30,112 bases of DNA, from IMG/VR virus record IMGVR_UViG_3300020469_000170, positions 1-30,112 of that record. One strand, 5' to 3'. Below the pieces are notes generated by a model that worked only from the letters and a program-made list of their open reading frames with translations, had not been told where the DNA came from and ran no database searches. Shown one piece after another: positions 3,334 to 23,354 of the stretch; position 1 is the stretch's first letter; every line of letters starts with the position of its first letter. A program made the position numbers and the translations under genes. Origin of the DNA: a virus.

Positions 3334-3386
3334 CGTACTTTGTAAGTCTATGTTTTTACTGTTTATTATATTACAGTCGCAGTGAA

Positions 3387-3405
3387 TGACCCACTAGTGA
3401 CCCAC
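3387..3405. promoter_or_regulatory. Paired TGACCCAC direct repeats (right arm sites)
   Basis: Two perfect copies of TGACCCAC at 3387-3394 and 3398-3405, 11 bases apart (one helical turn). They lie just before the ATG at 3406 and are inverted with respect to the copies at 3182 and 3249. Their position supports the ATG at 3406 as the integrase start instead of the GTG at 3382, because the repeats then lie outside the gene. Confidence 0.45.
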
Positions 3406-4539
3406 ATGCCCCAGATACGCCCTCGTCCTAACGGCAGCTACCAAGCTATAGTCCGTAAGGCTAAGTACCCTGATCAACGCAAAACCTTCAAAACTAAGTC
3501 TGCTGCTAAGGCTTGGGCTAGGAAGGTTGAGATGCAGATGGACGAAGGCACGTTCATAGATGAAAAAGAAGTAATTAGCCATAAGCTGTCAGATCTAATC
3601 CACAAGTACATCAAAGAGCTAGAGCCTGTGAAACCAGTACTAGGGTCTAAGCTCTCGAGCCTAGAGCGTATGGCCCGTGAGTTTGGTGCTGACACACTCA
3701 GAGATCTCACACCTCAGTACCTGCTCAGCTACGGCAAACGTCGTCGGAAGACTGTAACAGCTTCGACATTGCAGAAAGACATGTCTTATCTCAAGCAGGT
3801 GATCGACTACGGCATCGTAATCTGGAGGCTACCAATAGCTGCTAACCCTGTGGTTGTGACACAGCCCACACTTGGTTCTCTGAAGATGGTTGCTGGCAGT
3901 AAGCGCCGTACGCGTCGGCTGCGAGAAGGCGAATGGGAAACGCTGATGGCTGGGGTAGGCAGGCAGCATAATTCTGAGTCTGGTAACAACTGGCTAAGCC
4001 CTATGATTGAGTTTGCGGTTGAGTCCTGTATGCGGCAGGGCGAAATTCATCGCTTAACTTGGGACGATGTAGACTTTGAACGGCACACCGTGCGCATACA
4101 AAGCAGGTTATGGGACGGTTATAAGAAGGGGCCGACTGATATAATACCTATGCGAGAAGGCTTGAGAGAGGTGCTCCTGCGTGAATTTGAGAAGGTTGGC
4201 AGGGTAACCCGTAACAGAACGCGGCTACCAGAACGGGCTAACCATGTGTTTGGCAAGCCAAAGAGGGCCGGATCAATTTCAGACAGGTTTGCTAGAGTGG
4301 CAATTAAATGTGGGTTAAGAGCAGCACCAATTCCTGGTGTTAAAAGCGAAGCAACCGAAGAAGATTTAACTTTTCACGATCTTAGGCACGAGGGCATAAG
4401 TCGTCTCTTTGAAGATAAAGAAAAGAATTACAGTGTCCCTGAAGTTGCCGTCATATCAGGCCACATTAAATGGGACACACTTTCAATTTACACCCAGTTA
4501 GACCCAGAAAGATTTAATCACGAGGGTCGTCACCCATAG
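3406..4539 (+). CDS. int: Tyrosine recombinase / phage integrase
   Basis: 377 residues from the ATG at 3406; a GTG at 3382 would add eight residues. The start MPQIRPRPNGSYQAIVRKAKYPDQRKTF matches the usual N-terminal arm-binding/AP2-like domain of phage integrases, followed by a SAM-like core-binding domain (about 50-150). Catalytic residues are visible: Arg in ESCMRQGEIHRLTW (R210), HDLRH (H324, R327), SGH (H353) and the nucleophile Tyr362 in LSIYTQL. It inserts and, with the excisionase, removes the phage at the host tRNA-Ser site whose copy lies just upstream. It converges with the DUF3310 gene, overlapping its end by 26 bases. Confidence 0.95.
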   Translation: MPQIRPRPNGSYQAIVRKAKYPDQRKTFKTKSAAKAWARKVEMQMDEGTFIDEKEVISHKLSDLIHKYIKELEPVKPVLGSKLSSLERMAREFGADTLRDLTPQYLLSYGKRRRKTVTASTLQKDMSYLKQVIDYGIVIWRLPIAANPVVVTQPTLGSLKMVAGSKRRTRRLREGEWETLMAGVGRQHNSESGNNWLSPMIEFAVESCMRQGEIHRLTWDDVDFERHTVRIQSRLWDGYKKGPTDIIPMREGLREVLLREFEKVGRVTRNRTRLPERANHVFGKPKRAGSISDRFARVAIKCGLRAAPIPGVKSEATEEDLTFHDLRHEGISRLFEDKEKNYSVPEVAVISGHIKWDTLSIYTQLDPERFNHEGRHP

Positions 4540-16232: not shown

Positions 16233-16302
16233 GGTTTACCTCGTTCAGAATTTGTTTGATGGTCAGAAAGGTCAGGACAAATTGGATTGCTTTGTCGAAC
16301 AC
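16120..16302 (-). CDS. Small protein with hydrophobic N-terminus, 60 residues
   Basis: GTG at 16302 overlaps the TAG of the E2-like gene and has AAGGAG six bases upstream, a textbook arrangement. Residues 1-25 (MFDKAIQFVLTFLTIKQIL) are hydrophobic and amphipathic; residues 27-60 are Gly/Pro/Asp/Thr-rich and look disordered. The disordered half overlaps the 43-residue gene in another frame, so part of its composition may be imposed by that overlap. Confidence 0.45.
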   Translation of the reverse strand: MFDKAIQFVLTFLTIKQILNEVNREATGTEADTGERGARTVHGDSSPDTGAPEDPSQPTV

Positions 16303-17339
16303 TAATTACTCCTTACGTATTCGTCGGCGTAGTCAGACTCACAACGGTCTTCATCTGCGAAAATGCCATCAAGCATTTCATCGATCAGCTGCGTATTTAC
16401 GCTGTCTGGTCGTTGCGGATAGCTGTCTGGTCGTTGCGGATAGCTGTCTATATAGCTCACTGGCTCTGGCACATACTGGGGCCAGTGGTAGAACCGGCGG
16501 CCTGCGGGATCCTCTGGATCGAACTGCCGCAGAAACATGCCGACAAGAGTGACGAGGGTTACAATGTCGTAGTCCTCACTGGCGTCTTGGACAGGGCCAC
16601 TGAAGTCACCAAGGCAGGGCTGAGATGTCGAAGTCATGTGCGGATGCAGAACTTCGGATCCGTCATAGCCGCCGTAGCGCTTGGATAAGCCATTGACGCT
16701 GCGGAACTTGACCCCGTGGTTGCGATCACCAATCGTGATGTCGACGTTGATAGGTGAAATCACAATAGCTTCGTTGCTACCACGGGCACAGCGCGCTATC
16801 AGTTGAGGTGTCTGATACGTGATGCGGTAGGTGTCTTCGGCAAGCCACTCCTCATGGATCTTTAGCTTAATCGAACCGTTGACGTAGTCATCACAGACAG
16901 ACAGGTCACTGTCTAGCTTGTCGGTGTCAAGTGTGACGATTGCGTTAGGCATGGACTCAGCACGGTGGAGACGAAACTTCGCCTGTTGCAGGTTAGCAAG
17001 CATTTCCGCAATTATTTCTTCTTCAATTCGGCGAATCCTGCGTTCATAGTCGACAATGTCTGCCGCTAGCCGACTAAAACCGCGCGAGATCTGGTCTTTA
17101 AGCTGATCAGCTACCGATGTAGAACCGCCAGCTGCTTGCAAGAAAGGCCAGTTTGTTTTGGGCACACTGTCTAGGCAGAGGTACTCTTTTTTCAGAGGTG
17201 CAAGTTTTAGTTTGTATCTGGTTCTGGCGGCGCGTTGCTCTGCAATCGTTCTCTCGCAGTTTTCTATTTGACGTTTAGCTGCTTTGATTCCCGGTGCAGC
17301 ACGATTAATTTCGAGACGCTTGCGTACTTTGAAAGCCAT
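16302..17339 (-). CDS. E2-like ubiquitin-conjugating protein with N-terminal coiled coil
   Basis: 345 residues. Residues about 5-125 are a long charged helix region, probably coiled coil. Residues about 135-290 look like a UBC/E2 fold: beta-strand pattern 'NVDITIGDRNHGVKFRSV' followed by 'EVLHPHMTSTSQPCLGDF', which matches the E2 active-site pattern HPN/H...CLG, with H232, H234 and the putative catalytic Cys242. The C-terminus (about 295-345) is Pro/acidic and contains a duplicated DSYPQRP. Starts two bases after the JAB gene stop and uses AAGGAG at its end as ribosome-binding site. The neighbours (JAB, E1, Ubl) make the E2 role much more likely than sequence alone. Fold prediction would settle it. 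Confidence 0.72.
   Translation of the reverse strand: MAFKVRKRLEINRAAPGIKAAKRQIENCERTIAEQRAARTRYKLKLAPLKKEYLCLDSVPKTNWPFLQAAGGSTSVADQLKDQISRGFSRLAADIVDYERRIRRIEEEIIAEMLANLQQAKFRLHRAESMPNAIVTLDTDKLDSDLSVCDDYVNGSIKLKIHEEWLAEDTYRITYQTPQLIARCARGSNEAIVISPINVDITIGDRNHGVKFRSVNGLSKRYGGYDGSEVLHPHMTSTSQPCLGDFSGPVQDASEDYDIVTLVTLVGMFLRQFDPEDPAGRRFYHWPQYVPEPVSYIDSYPQRPDSYPQRPDSVNTQLIDEMLDGIFADEDRCESDYADEYVRSN
16401..16442. repeat. 21-base direct repeat (x2) in the E2-like gene
   Basis: 16401-16421 is repeated exactly at 16422-16442, with a partial third copy (GCTGTCT) at 16443-16449. It encodes two in-frame copies of DSYPQRP in the C-terminal tail. It looks like a recent slippage duplication. Confidence 0.9.
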
Positions 17340-17341
17340 AG

Positions 17342-18148
17342 TTACTCCTTAAAGCCGAATGGATCGTTCATTAGATCGTCATACCCAACAACATCGTCAT
17401 CGTCGTAGTAGCCCGGATTAATGTAGCTTGGGTAGGGATCTCCATAAGCGGGATAGTTTTGATGGCTGAACATTGACTGCTGGCGCGCTGGATACTTTCC
17501 CAGCGGTGACCCCGCTGTGGCCTTGACCACTGGCTTGTACACTTTTTTCTTGACGTTCTGCTTGATCAGCGAGTCGAGATGCTTTTTGGTTGCATCAGTC
17601 ATAGGCTGCGGACGCACCATGTTCTTGACACACTGGTGTACGCAATTGCTATCGACGTCATACACATCGACTTTGCTGTCACCGAATTTGTTGTAGATGC
17701 CACGGATGAACTGCTTGCAGCCGTTCTCCAAGAACGCTTCGATCTGCTGCTCGTCTTGTCCTGACGGGCTGACGCCCATCGTGACGTGAGAGTGGCCCCA
17801 GTAGATGAGCTTGTCAGACTCGATGCCTTGCTCTTCCAGCTGAACTGCTAGCTCACAGATGGCTTCAGCATCGATGTCTGTCTCGGCACCGTGTACTTCT
17901 TGCCTAGGCACAAAGATCTGAGTGACCTCGAAGTCACCGGTCTCTTCACATTGCTCAGCGGTGCCAAGCCAGCCGACTTCTGTGCCGACTTGCTGCACAA
18001 GATAGTCGATGGATGCGGCCACTTCGGGCGTGTAGTAAACAATAGGTGGGTCAGGGTAGTCGTCGTCAAATAACTGTGTGGTCTCAGCTGTCATCGACGA
18101 ACTGTCGAAACTCGCTGACTGGTTCGACCAGTAAGTAACTTTGCTCAT
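17342..18148 (-). CDS. JAB/JAMM-domain isopeptidase (deubiquitinase-like)
   Basis: 268 residues from the ATG at 18148. Zinc metallopeptidase motif complete: Glu57 in 'GTEVGWLG', and 'WGHSHVTMGVSPSGQDEQQ' gives H119-x-H121-x7-S129-x2-D132, the JAMM signature. The C-terminal 100 residues are Lys-rich then Tyr/Pro/Asp-rich ('YGDPYPSYINPGYYDDDDVVGYDDL') and are not recognised. The family cleaves after the C-terminus of ubiquitin-like proteins, either to mature the Ubl or to remove it from targets. ATG overlaps the TGA of the E1 gene (ATGA), showing translational coupling of E1 and JAB. Lambda K-type tail proteins also have JAB domains, but they sit with tail genes, not here. Confidence 0.88.
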   Translation of the reverse strand: MSKVTYWSNQSASFDSSSMTAETTQLFDDDYPDPPIVYYTPEVAASIDYLVQQVGTEVGWLGTAEQCEETGDFEVTQIFVPRQEVHGAETDIDAEAICELAVQLEEQGIESDKLIYWGHSHVTMGVSPSGQDEQQIEAFLENGCKQFIRGIYNKFGDSKVDVYDVDSNCVHQCVKNMVRPQPMTDATKKHLDSLIKQNVKKKVYKPVVKATAGSPLGKYPARQQSMFSHQNYPAYGDPYPSYINPGYYDDDDVVGYDDLMNDPFGFKE

Positions 18149-18831
18149 ATAGCCTCCTTGGTACAAAGCAACATGGGTTTAAAGAAGACATCGAGTTGCG
18201 CTGTCGCGCAGCCGTCGTCCAGTAAGAAGTTGATGAACTCCCACACCGCAAGGTTTGCGATGAGTGAGGCAGTGGCACCGACAGAGATGCTGGTACCACA
18301 TAGGGATACTTCGCCCTCGTCATCGCTGATGAGCGAATCAAACCAAGCATCGCGCTGTGATTTGTTGACAGGGGAGAAGTGGTAGATGTTTCCGTGAGCA
18401 GCCGCCATGCGTGTCTCGAACACATGCAGCAACATGCTGTCGACACCTGTGTTCTGCGACTCCATGATCTTGCGACGAGACGCCATCGTGTCTGTCAGCA
18501 AGAACAAAAAGCCATCGAACTGGCGCTGGTCAATACGTTCATTGATGAACTGCATTGGCAGCTGGTCTTCAGGCACGCCGAGCTTGAGAGACACTAGGTT
18601 CTGCAGTGCTTTGACTTTGGGCAAGCCAATGTGGTGGTGCAGATACGCTTGGTTGGCGAGGTTGTGTGGCTCCACGATGTCGAAGTCATACACATGCAGG
18701 TTGGTCAGGCCCAACTCCACAAGTGACATGAAGACACGCGAGCCAGTAGCACCGGCACCGACGATATGGATTGGGTAATCCTTGTAATCGTATGCACGGA
18801 ACACAGAGTCATGGCGTATGGTTGAAAGCAT
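18145..18831 (-). CDS. E1-like Ubl-activating enzyme (ThiF/MoeB family)
   Basis: 228 residues, a minimal E1. Rossmann nucleotide loop 'IHIVGAGATGSRVFMSL' (GAGATG at 25-30); 'HVYDFDIVEPHNLANQAY' (D49, D51) is the adenylate/Mg region; 'IGLPKVKAL' holds the conserved Lys; 'LLTDTMASRRKI' the second Asp. 'SLCGTSISVGATASL' places a putative catalytic Cys at 178, in the usual place before the last helices. The Arg of the usual 'NLxRQ' is replaced (NLANQ). No Ubl-fold or extra catalytic domain is appended. It should adenylate the C-terminus of the Ubl encoded upstream and pass it to Cys178 or to the E2-like protein. Confidence 0.88.
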   Translation of the reverse strand: MLSTIRHDSVFRAYDYKDYPIHIVGAGATGSRVFMSLVELGLTNLHVYDFDIVEPHNLANQAYLHHHIGLPKVKALQNLVSLKLGVPEDQLPMQFINERIDQRQFDGFLFLLTDTMASRRKIMESQNTGVDSMLLHVFETRMAAAHGNIYHFSPVNKSQRDAWFDSLISDDEGEVSLCGTSISVGATASLIANLAVWEFINFLLDDGCATAQLDVFFKPMLLCTKEAI

Positions 18832-18919
18832 ACGACCTCCAAGTCAGGTTGATAGGAACCCCCGTCGCTGGCCTCACGGACGGGGAACGTGATTCGGGAT
18901 ATGGCCGAATGGGTAGGGT
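18832..18919 (-). promoter_or_regulatory. Structured gap between Ubl and E1 genes
   Basis: 88 bases holding two perfect stems: CCCCGTC/GACGGGG (18860-18866 and 18879-18885) and ATTCGG/CCGAAT (18892-18897 and 18905-18910). No T-run follows, so it is not a typical terminator. It may set the ratio of Ubl to E1 by partial attenuation or by mRNA processing and stabilisation of the upstream Ubl message. The E1 ribosome-binding site GGAGG follows at 18836-18840. Confidence 0.4.
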
Positions 18920-19138
18920 CTAACCGTTACCTTTAGCGCCATCGCTGACGATGAGACGTGAGTTGTCACCGAGCACATCGCTCTGTGAAACTGCTGCACC
19001 GTTGAGCTTAATCTCAGTGGTGCTGCCGATCTCAATGCCTGCAGCGGATAACGCTTCAGCGACGGTTGCGCCCTGTTCCAAAACCACCTCGGTTGTGGCT
19101 CCAGGGACTTTGCCGACCTTGACGAATATCTCTGACAT
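18920..19138 (-). CDS. Ubiquitin-like / ThiS-MoaD-like beta-grasp protein
   Basis: 72 residues. The pattern 'EVVLEQGATVAEALSAAGIEIGSTTEIKLNGAAVSQSDVLGDNSRLIVSD' (in parts: ATVAEALSAAGI, EIKLNGAAV, LGDNSRLIVSD) is the beta-grasp layout of ThiS, MoaD and bacterial Ubl proteins. The C-terminus is flexible and ends ...DGAKGNG, so the terminal residue is Gly but without the common Gly-Gly. It is the protein modifier activated by the E1 encoded next. A sulfur-carrier role (thiamine or molybdopterin) is less likely, since the neighbours are JAB and E2-like, not biosynthetic genes. The start has an AGGAGG site inside a hairpin. Confidence 0.85.
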   Translation of the reverse strand: MSEIFVKVGKVPGATTEVVLEQGATVAEALSAAGIEIGSTTEIKLNGAAVSQSDVLGDNSRLIVSDGAKGNG

Positions 19139-22388: not shown

Positions 22389-22403
22389 GGTACCTCCTGT
22401 ACC
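22389..22403 (-). promoter_or_regulatory. Hairpin with Shine-Dalgarno in the loop (CsrA-site candidate)
   Basis: Minus strand GGTAC-AGGAG-GTACC directly followed by ATG at 22388. Perfect 5-base stem, ribosome-binding site in the loop; GUACAGGA is close to the CsrA consensus RUACARGGA. Confidence 0.6.
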
Positions 22404-22451
22404 TAAGTTGATTGATGAGCGTCATGCTCAAGAGTGAAACCGACTGAGTCC

Positions 22452-22616
22452 TCAGAATGAGAACTCATAAATATCAGCTTCTGACAAAATGGTACAGAGT
22501 GTACTAGATTGCCCCAAACGAAAGTCAAAGGGAAGCGCTGGCTCTGAATAGTCGTGGTCAACGACATCAGGCCAAGGCTGTTGATGTAAATTCAAAGGTT
22601 GGTAGTCACTGGTCAT
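22452..22616 (-). CDS. Small hypothetical protein, 54 residues
   Basis: MTSDYQPLNLHQQPWPDVVDHDYSEP... with AGGAG five bases before the ATG. Acidic, Pro/His-rich. The site F palindrome lies inside its 3' part. Only the ribosome-binding site and the spacing to the next gene support it. Confidence 0.45.
   Translation of the reverse strand: MTSDYQPLNLHQQPWPDVVDHDYSEPALPFDFRLGQSSTLCTILSEADIYEFSF
22492..22504. promoter_or_regulatory. Operator-like palindrome with promoter, site F
   Basis: GTACA-GAG-TGTAC, a perfect palindrome. Minus strand TTGGGG-17-TACCAT overlaps it and points to the 195-residue gene about 100 bases downstream. Confidence 0.55.
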
Positions 22617-22628
22617 AGCGTCTCCTGG

Positions 22629-22757
22629 TTACGAGTGTTTGTGCGCTGCGATCAGCCGGGACTGAACAAGCTGCACGATGGGATCGTTCTGTTTGCCGTG
22701 GTCATAAGCACTAGCTAATGCTTCAACAAACAAGGTACGAGCTTTAGGGTTTTTCAT
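22629..22757 (-). CDS. Small hypothetical protein, 42 residues
   Basis: MKNPKARTLFVEALASAYDHGKQNDPIVQ...; helical, soluble. AAGGAG precedes the ATG inside the hairpin at 22760-22772. It overlaps the end of the upstream 52-residue gene by 14 bases. No family recognised. Confidence 0.5.
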   Translation of the reverse strand: MKNPKARTLFVEALASAYDHGKQNDPIVQLVQSRLIAAHKHS

Positions 22758-22902
22758 TGGATCTCCTTGATCTAATGGTGAAGTAAGCGAGGCCGACAAC
22801 AGCCACGCCGATGAGTACGTAGAACAGCGCTGAATACAGAGCCATTACTACGGGGAATAGGGCTGCTGCGATCAACAGCCCAAGAAACAAACGAAAGGTC
22901 AT
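22744..22902 (-). CDS. Small membrane protein, 52 residues
   Basis: MTFRLFLGLLIAAALFPVVMALYSALFYVLIGVAVVGLAYFTIRSRRSNEKP in outline: two hydrophobic segments and a short basic cytoplasmic end. Weak ribosome-binding site (AGGA). Overlaps the next gene by 14 bases. First gene left of the repeat array. Confidence 0.5.
   Translation of the reverse strand: MTFRLFLGLLIAAALFPVVMALYSALFYVLIGVAVVGLAYFTIRSRRSNEKP
22760..22772 (-). promoter_or_regulatory. Small hairpin around Shine-Dalgarno
   Basis: Minus strand GATC-AAGGA-GATC: 4-base stem with AAGGA in the loop, two bases before the ATG at 22757. It contains the ANGGA core preferred by CsrA. Short, so could be chance. Confidence 0.35.
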
Positions 22903-23326
22903 AACTCATTCCTAAAAGTAATTGAATGTACAAATACCACCGACTTCTATGAGCGAAGCGAATAGATGTGTGCCATGTGTGCCAGCTAGCGGTGGGTGTG
23001 TGCCAGATTGTGTGCCACCTAGAATTAGGGTTAAGTGCTTGATTAATATAGATAAAGTGGAATGTGTGCCATGTGTGTCATGATTTTAGGGGTCTATTAG
23101 ACCTAAACAAAAAATCAAAAAAGCACACATGTAAAAAAACGAAGTTGAAAAATGTAAACACACATGTCACACATGACACACAAACAGGTGTTTTGTTAAT
23201 GGAATCAACGAGTTAAGTGTGTGCCAAATTGTGTGCCACGTAATTTTGGAAGGTGACACACATGACACACACCTGCACGTCGTTGGGTCACGGTACAAGT
23301 GGCACGTCGTTAGCCAGCGTTGGTAT
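22903..23326. repeat. Iteron-like array: twelve copies of TGTGTGYCA (candidate origin)
   Basis: No gene in this stretch. TGTGTGCCA at 22967, 22976, 22997, 23009, 23063, 23218 and 23230; TGTGTGTCA at 23072; reverse-strand copies TGACACACA at 23174, 23254 and 23263, and TGTCACACA at 23165. They come in pairs with 9-base (abutting) or 12-base pitch. Between the groups lies an A-rich stretch (23104-23160) and a 13-base palindrome GGTCTA-T-TAGACC (23091-23103). Paired short repeats beside an AT-rich stretch are typical of iteron origins; a regulator-binding array is the alternative. Confidence 0.65.
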
Positions 23327-23350
23327 AAAAAAAGAGGCCCGAAGGCCCCT
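23327..23350 (-). terminator. Rho-independent terminator
   Basis: Minus strand AGGGGCC-TTCG-GGCCTCT (one G-U pair) followed by seven T. It ends the leftward transcript of the four genes 24241-23355 and insulates the repeat array. Confidence 0.88.
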
Positions 23351-23354
23351 TAGG

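Follow-up and report, generated by a model that had tools for sequence, protein, structure and literature searches.

A four-gene Ubl-E1-JAB-E2 cassette of phages as a probable ubiquitin-like conjugation cascade

Introduction

Do bacterial viruses tag proteins as our own cells do? Ubiquitin-like systems of bacteria are known as antiphage defences, and the locus described here raises the question of whether such a system can also belong to the phage. It lies in the IMG/VR virus record IMGVR_UViG_3300020469_000170, whose 30,112 bases, analysed as a whole, are referred to below as the window. The window is a contig of a tailed phage, and tightly packed in its leftward early operon are four genes, coding for a ubiquitin-like modifier (Ubl), an E1-like enzyme, a JAB/JAMM metalloprotease and an E2-like protein. 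An initial annotation, made from the sequence alone, had proposed that they form a complete conjugation set in a phage early or replication region, and the profile, motif, structural and comparative evidence presented below bears this out. In our estimate, the chances are roughly three in four that these genes encode a reversible cascade for ubiquitin-like conjugation, which the phage expresses at an early stage of infection and carries as an accessory module open to exchange. Since dozens of unrelated phages carry the same four-gene set, the answer to the opening question is probably yes.

Results

All four genes are on the minus strand, directly upstream of the DNA polymerase gene, in the order Ubl (18920..19138), E1 (18145..18831), JAB (17342..18148) and E2 (16302..17339); the open reading frames (ORFs), coordinates, lengths, spacing and order given by the initial annotation were all found again in the sequence. 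The stop codon of E1 and the start codon of JAB overlap in the sequence ATGA, and the gap between JAB and E2 is 2 bases. While this agrees with the coupled stoichiometry that had been proposed for the cassette, the Ubl gene stands outside the coupling: it is separated from E1 by 88 nt, and only E1, JAB and E2 would therefore be translationally linked. An attenuator in the Ubl-E1 gap was considered and rejected, because the hairpin there is no more stable than those of shuffled sequences. Direct scans against PHROGs, PADLOC and NCBIfam gave no name to Ubl, JAB or E2.

The E1-like enzyme (228 aa) is a single-domain protein of the ThiF/UBA5 type. It matches Pfam ThiF at 3.4e-18, and its family profile finds human UBA5, the E1 of UFM1, as the top match in the PDB (1e-17), followed by ThiF and MoeB, with MccB and PaaA also among the matches. 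The Rossmann adenylation domain, the Lys and Asp residues and the catalytic cysteine of E1/ThiF proteins are all present; in particular, the glycine-rich loop, D49, D51, K72, D114, R141 and C178, the predicted thioester cysteine (18298..18300, minus strand), are invariant in 45 divergent homologues. Equally invariant in these is N60 (18652..18654, minus strand), an Asn that replaces the usual Arg of the NLxRQ motif to give HNLxNQ. Some of the loci were retrieved with a pattern containing this Asn; the residue is also present in all 14 lineages that were retrieved through JAB alone, in a cultured Xanthomonas phage and in relatives from bacterial metagenome-assembled genomes (MAGs). The position is occupied by Gly in a Flavobacterium phage and in Dulem virus, and by Arg in PRTRC ThiF.

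The JAB protein (268 aa) is predicted to serve in both processing and deconjugation. Its start is the ATG at 18148, with GGAGG in front, a longer TTG start also being open. The direct family scan is weak (Pfam, 0.2); the family profile matches Rpn11 at 1e-6, and the AlphaFold2 (AF2) model, with a predicted local distance difference test (pLDDT) score of 81.9, has the MPN fold, matching Rpn11 (Z 16.5, root-mean-square deviation 4.0 over 148 residues), P. furiosus JAMM1 (Z 15.6, deviation 2.1 over 125 residues) and also CSN5. The full ExnHxHx7SxxD signature noted at the outset holds throughout the family, namely, E57 at the position of the JAMM catalytic Glu (17978-17980, minus strand) and the residues of the core H119-x-H121-x7-S129-x2-D132 (17753..17794, minus strand) are invariant in 40 of 40 diverse homologues. 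Note that the disordered tail of the protein (17342-17365) ends in a motif that members of the close clade have in common (DPFGFKE, NPFGFRE, TPFYYKD), which may be a peptide where E1 or E2 docks. In one locus (L117, 5968-7114) the JAB gene appears as two ORFs with a 253-base gap between them, which is possibly an insertion or a sequencing error.

The E2-like protein (345 aa) consists of an N-terminal coiled coil in the form of a helical hairpin (residues 14-128), an alpha/beta domain of putative UBC type (approximately 130-292) and a disordered tail. Its AF2 model is confident (pLDDT 86.7) and shows the domain as a strand meander followed by two helices. With HMMER, the domain profile retrieved no PDB chain and no Pfam family, and a search with PF14461 was uninformative, matching nothing anywhere. 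In profile-profile comparison with hhalign, on the other hand, the domain matches a human E2 profile with P 8e-6 and a score of 38.7, this profile being built from five sequences, one of them verified as UBE2D3 in the PDB. The controls, for which profiles were reversed or taken from JAB, E1 and Ubl, give scores of 9-18 and P between 0.05 and 0.7. The alignment pairs HPH with HPN, C242 (16614..16616, minus strand), the predicted catalytic cysteine, with C85 of UBE2D3, and D277 (16509..16511, minus strand) with D117 of UBE2D3, a residue that aids catalysis in UBE2D. P233, H234, C242, G244 and D277 are invariant in 30 homologues and H232 nearly so; the motifs HPH-x7-C and D.AG persist across very divergent members, and the 10 residues from H232 to C242 reproduce the spacing of human E2s. 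The E2 identity first proposed for this protein is thus supported by the match of its C-terminal domain to ubiquitin-conjugating enzymes, and nothing found called for its withdrawal. Within the E2 gene, 21 bases are duplicated in tandem (16402-16450), so that part of the tail reads SYPQRPD-SYPQRPD; the closest relative, L002, has no such duplication. Five other cassettes (L056, L059, L061, L105 and L115) have two E2-like genes each.

The Ubl is a 72-aa beta-grasp protein. Its family profile matches archaeal SAMP2 (4e-5, PDB profile search), the alignment reaching the C-terminus of SAMP2; two designed repeat proteins that scored higher were set aside as composition artefacts. A Pfam scan gives a weak match to ThiS, and the SAMP2 match places the profile in the ThiS/MoaD/SAMP group of beta-grasp Ubls. 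The protein ends in A-K-G-N-G, with the conserved motif K69-G70-N71 at 18926..18934 (minus strand) followed by G72 and the stop codon. Among 58 Ubl domains detected, 39 have a K-G-N tail, 8 have [KR]-G-[AS], one has KGF and one EGG, the rest being paralogues or divergent; a GG tail is confined to L075 and to the bacterial relatives. In the Myxococcales relatives, where EGG is followed by variable cap residues, the terminal Gly is in ungapped register with N71. Several phages have tandem Ubls of 2-4 units, in which every unit ends in KGN or RGA, as one would expect of a processed poly-Ubl. Extra Ubl-like paralogues stand beside the main Ubl in L002 (4228-4617), L011 (3286-3770) and L021 (3532-3747), the last two without a KGN tail and the first with VKGF and a long extension, and the tandem Ubls of L059 and L061 have no Gly tail at all. 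A 70-aa gene adjoining the Xanthomonas phage E1 was rejected as a Ubl, as it has neither a match to the Ubl profile nor a Gly-type tail.

How widespread is the cassette? Scans seeded by E1, E2 and JAB, followed by iterated searches with hidden Markov models, put the number of distinct viral lineages that have all four genes at 38 or more, the orders being Ubl-E1-JAB-E2, Ubl-E2-JAB-E1, E2-JAB-E1-Ubl and variants. Relatives of the Ubl thus accompany E1, JAB and E2 instead of thiamine or molybdopterin genes. Across 44 loci, the four cassette genes are the only ones common to the whole set, other neighbours such as DNA polymerase, helicase and terminase being shared within subclades only. Terminase was found in 26 of 40 cassette-bearing records tested and integrase in 9 of 24. 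In a group of gut phages scored as JAB-E1, a small Ubl-like gene is present as well, and so is an E2-like gene, with the motif PH..C. Among cultured relatives, Flavobacterium phages carry E1 and JAB, and the Xanthomonas PhiXhv phages and Erwinia phage Ep032 carry E1 together with a protein of 892 aa in which the E2 motif is present.

Between the window and L002 all four genes are under purifying selection, with ratios of nonsynonymous to synonymous substitution (dN/dS) of 0 for Ubl, which is 100% identical, 0.07 for E1, 0.24 for JAB and 0.34 for E2. This selection, together with the joint occurrence in so many viral lineages, rules out chance as an explanation of the set. The E2 is 72% identical over aligned codons while Ubl and E1 are nearly frozen, a pattern that would fit the E2 as the part that chooses the target.

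The module is at the same time optional and interchangeable, since related phages lack it. Record G056, whose terminase is 84% and whose DNA polymerase is 51% identical to those of the window, keeps the flanking homologues and has none of the four genes, their interval being filled by a block with a DUF2201 metallopeptidase/VWA protein; the four genes are likewise absent from the stretches read of phages KPP25 and phiA008. The cassette interval is therefore a hotspot of interchangeable modules. In a close relative without the cassette (L223, 3286-7164), the block found at this place encodes, besides the DUF2201 metallopeptidase/VWA protein, a possible AAA ATPase.

Discussion

Taken together, these genes would support the following cascade, which very probably is active and belongs to the phage. 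The JAB protein would mature the tail of the Ubl precursor by trimming and would separate tandem poly-Ubls into their units. The E1, acting as a homodimer of the ThiF/UBA5 type, would then adenylate the C-terminus of the Ubl and load it as a thioester on C178, from where it would move to C242 of the E2-like protein. HPH and D277 would assist its transfer onto an amino group of a target picked by the N-terminal coiled coil, and JAB would finally reverse the tag. Judging by its position, the cassette is presumably expressed early, and the modification of a host (or defence) protein at that stage is the role we tentatively put first; a role in tagging the phage's own replication or virion proteins seems rather doubtful, and tagging of rival phages somewhat more so.

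That said, four observations weigh against such a cascade. First, the Arg of NLxRQ is missing from the E1, Asn standing in its place in 45 of 45 aligned phage sequences; in MoeB this residue (R73) normally contacts ATP. Second, the Ubl of the window lacks a C-terminal Gly-Gly, having G-N instead. Third, searches with the whole model of the E2-like protein (Foldseek/VIA) returned only coiled-coil proteins, their lists being filled by its coiled coil, and the UBC fold therefore rests on the profile match, motif spacing and secondary structure. Fourth, no E3 or substrate was identified, and no such gene recurs with the cassette in the 44 loci.

Could the first two be features of the system itself? 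It is conceivable, if short of an even bet, that phage Ubls are activated and conjugated through the C-terminal Asn of K-G-N by an E1 clade with an altered ATP site. The reasons are that this Asn lines up with the last Gly of EGG and SAMP2 tails, that it is conserved while the cap residues after it vary, and that many of the Ubls stop exactly at it. Alternatively, JAB may remove N71, leaving a single-Gly K-G end for conjugation. A C-terminus other than Gly becomes a possibility, and, if the Asn is indeed the attachment point, the ubiquitin-like code of these phages would end in another residue than usual.

Would the same genes be equally well explained without conjugation by the phage? One such explanation is that of a decoy, in which JAB, perhaps along with mimicry by Ubl, E1 and E2, strips or jams Bil, Bub or the cyclic oligonucleotide-based antiphage signalling system (CBASS) of the host. 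A JAB that folds as a true deubiquitinase and whose active site is conserved in full, in an early, accessory and swappable locus, would suit this role, but C178, C242, HPH and D277 are conserved as invariant, which means that E1 and E2 have been kept catalytic, and the strongest constraint falls on the sequence of the Ubl. We consider the decoy unlikely. Still less probable is a sulphur carrier pathway, in which a ThiS/MoaD-like carrier is adenylated by the E1 so that sulphur can be transferred, and JAB does no more than mature this carrier. Here one can point to ThiF as the best E1 family in both Pfam and NCBIfam, to the weak similarity of the Ubl to ThiS and to phage E1s annotated elsewhere as 'thiamine biosynthesis protein'. 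However, the E1 falls far under every ThiF/MoeB cut-off of NCBIfam, the neighbourhoods share no gene beyond the cassette and hence no sulphur gene, an E2 nearly always accompanies the set, and neither the KGN tail nor the existence of tandem Ubls favours a carrier. Just as improbable is attachment of the Ubl to a lipid, nucleotide or small molecule, in the manner of ATG8 on lipid. While the lack of a recurrent substrate or E3 gene and the presence of MccB and PaaA among the E1 matches could be read in this way, the E2 retains the Asp that aligns with the Lys-attack residue of UBE2D3, and isopeptide bonds are what JAMM homologues cut. Finally, that the set is dead, the Arg-to-Asn change in E1 and the Gly-to-Asn change in Ubl marking lost function at normally critical positions, can hardly be squared with catalytic residues that do not vary even among very divergent phages, with dN/dS well under 1 and with repeated co-inheritance in different gene orders.

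The cassette had been likened to bacterial Bil/Bub operons and to PRTRC plasmid cassettes, and the analogy is sound at the level of activities and limited to it, because the defining E1 and E2 features of those systems are absent. The Bil operons (BilABCD) also hold Ubl, E2, JAB and E1 together, in the order Ubl-E2-JAB-E1 that is found in part of the phage family as well. In Bil, however, a CEHH motif marks BilB, BilA contains two Ubl domains, and BilD combines two adenylation domains with a Cys domain (PMC11354881), whereas the phage-borne E1 is a single domain of 228 aa and the phage E2-like protein has its His upstream of the Cys, as HPH; on both counts membership was rejected. PRTRC cassettes (type 6d of Iyer 2006) also sit on mobile elements in the vicinity of replication genes and have stand-alone genes for E1, JAB, an E2-like protein and a small Ubl with a K-G tail, but their E1 retains the Arg (HNCLRQ) where the phage E1 has Asn, and their E2 has its His downstream of the Cys (PMC1779556). 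The PRTRC A, B, C and ThiF models all stayed below cut-off, ThiF alone being reached at all (31.8 versus 144.75 bits). The poly-Ubl operons of type 6e (Iyer 2006) likewise combine tandem Ubls with E1, JAB and a UBC-fold protein, yet theirs is an inactive E2/RWD domain and their JAB is fused to E1 (PMC1779556), while the phage E2-like protein retains its Cys and the phage JAB is separate. CBASS Cap2/Cap3 and 6A-MBL have the E1, E2 and JAB activities in E2-E1 or E2-E1-JAB fusions whose partners are CD-NTase or MBL; the phage genes are separate, scans found no such partners, and the score for 6A-MBL is 54 versus 320 bits, so that this membership was rejected too. So was that in thiamine/molybdopterin ThiF-ThiS systems (61 versus 159 bits, no pathway neighbours). 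The tail assembly proteins I and K of lambda also pair a phage Ubl with a JAB, but in a tail module without E1 or E2 (PMC1779556).

What sets the family apart from Bil, Bub, PRTRC, CBASS and thiamine systems is a short single-domain E1 with HNLxNQ, a coiled-coil E2 with HPH-x7-C, a stand-alone JAB and K-G-N Ubls that are sometimes in tandem. The E1 Asn signature and the E2 HPH-C motif recur in uncharacterised operons on bacterial MAG contigs of Myxococcales and planctomycetes (L127-L138), which have the order Ubl-E2-JAB-E1 and whose Ubl tail is, however, EGG with a short cap and not KGN. A Cas4-like nuclease lies downstream of the operon in L130 and L135 and an integrase-like gene near that of L128, both judged by eye from the sequence. 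The suggestion of an undescribed system is plausible: the open-access literature, to which our search extended, with subscription papers outside it, gave no report of a complete phage-borne Ubl-E1-E2-JAB set.

If the catalytically conserved cascade is active, many unrelated phages would themselves rely on ubiquitin-like tagging, perhaps to counter rivals or the defences of the host. Moreover, the four proteins of the cassette, being small and separable, lend themselves to biochemistry, and a testable function is on offer for phage genes now labelled as thiamine biosynthesis or hypothetical.

Genomic setting of the cassette

Besides the cassette, the window encodes a large terminase subunit, a portal protein, a family A DNA polymerase, a primase-like protein, an SNF2-type helicase (Pfam scan) and a PD-(D/E)XK nuclease, and its backbone is similar to those of Pseudomonas phages KPP25 and phiR18 and Aeromonas phage phiA008. 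On the minus strand, the stretch between 20,607 and 15,000 shows no terminator-like site; a strong one was located at 21,793-21,768. A scan of the window returned no Rfam family and no tRNA. Since a tyrosine integrase gene (Pfam PF00589) is present at 3382-4539 on the plus strand, the phage may be temperate. Finally, some 970 bases between the early operons (22389-23354) contain almost no long ORF, and a 55-aa ORF within this stretch (22629-22799) has a homologue in L223.

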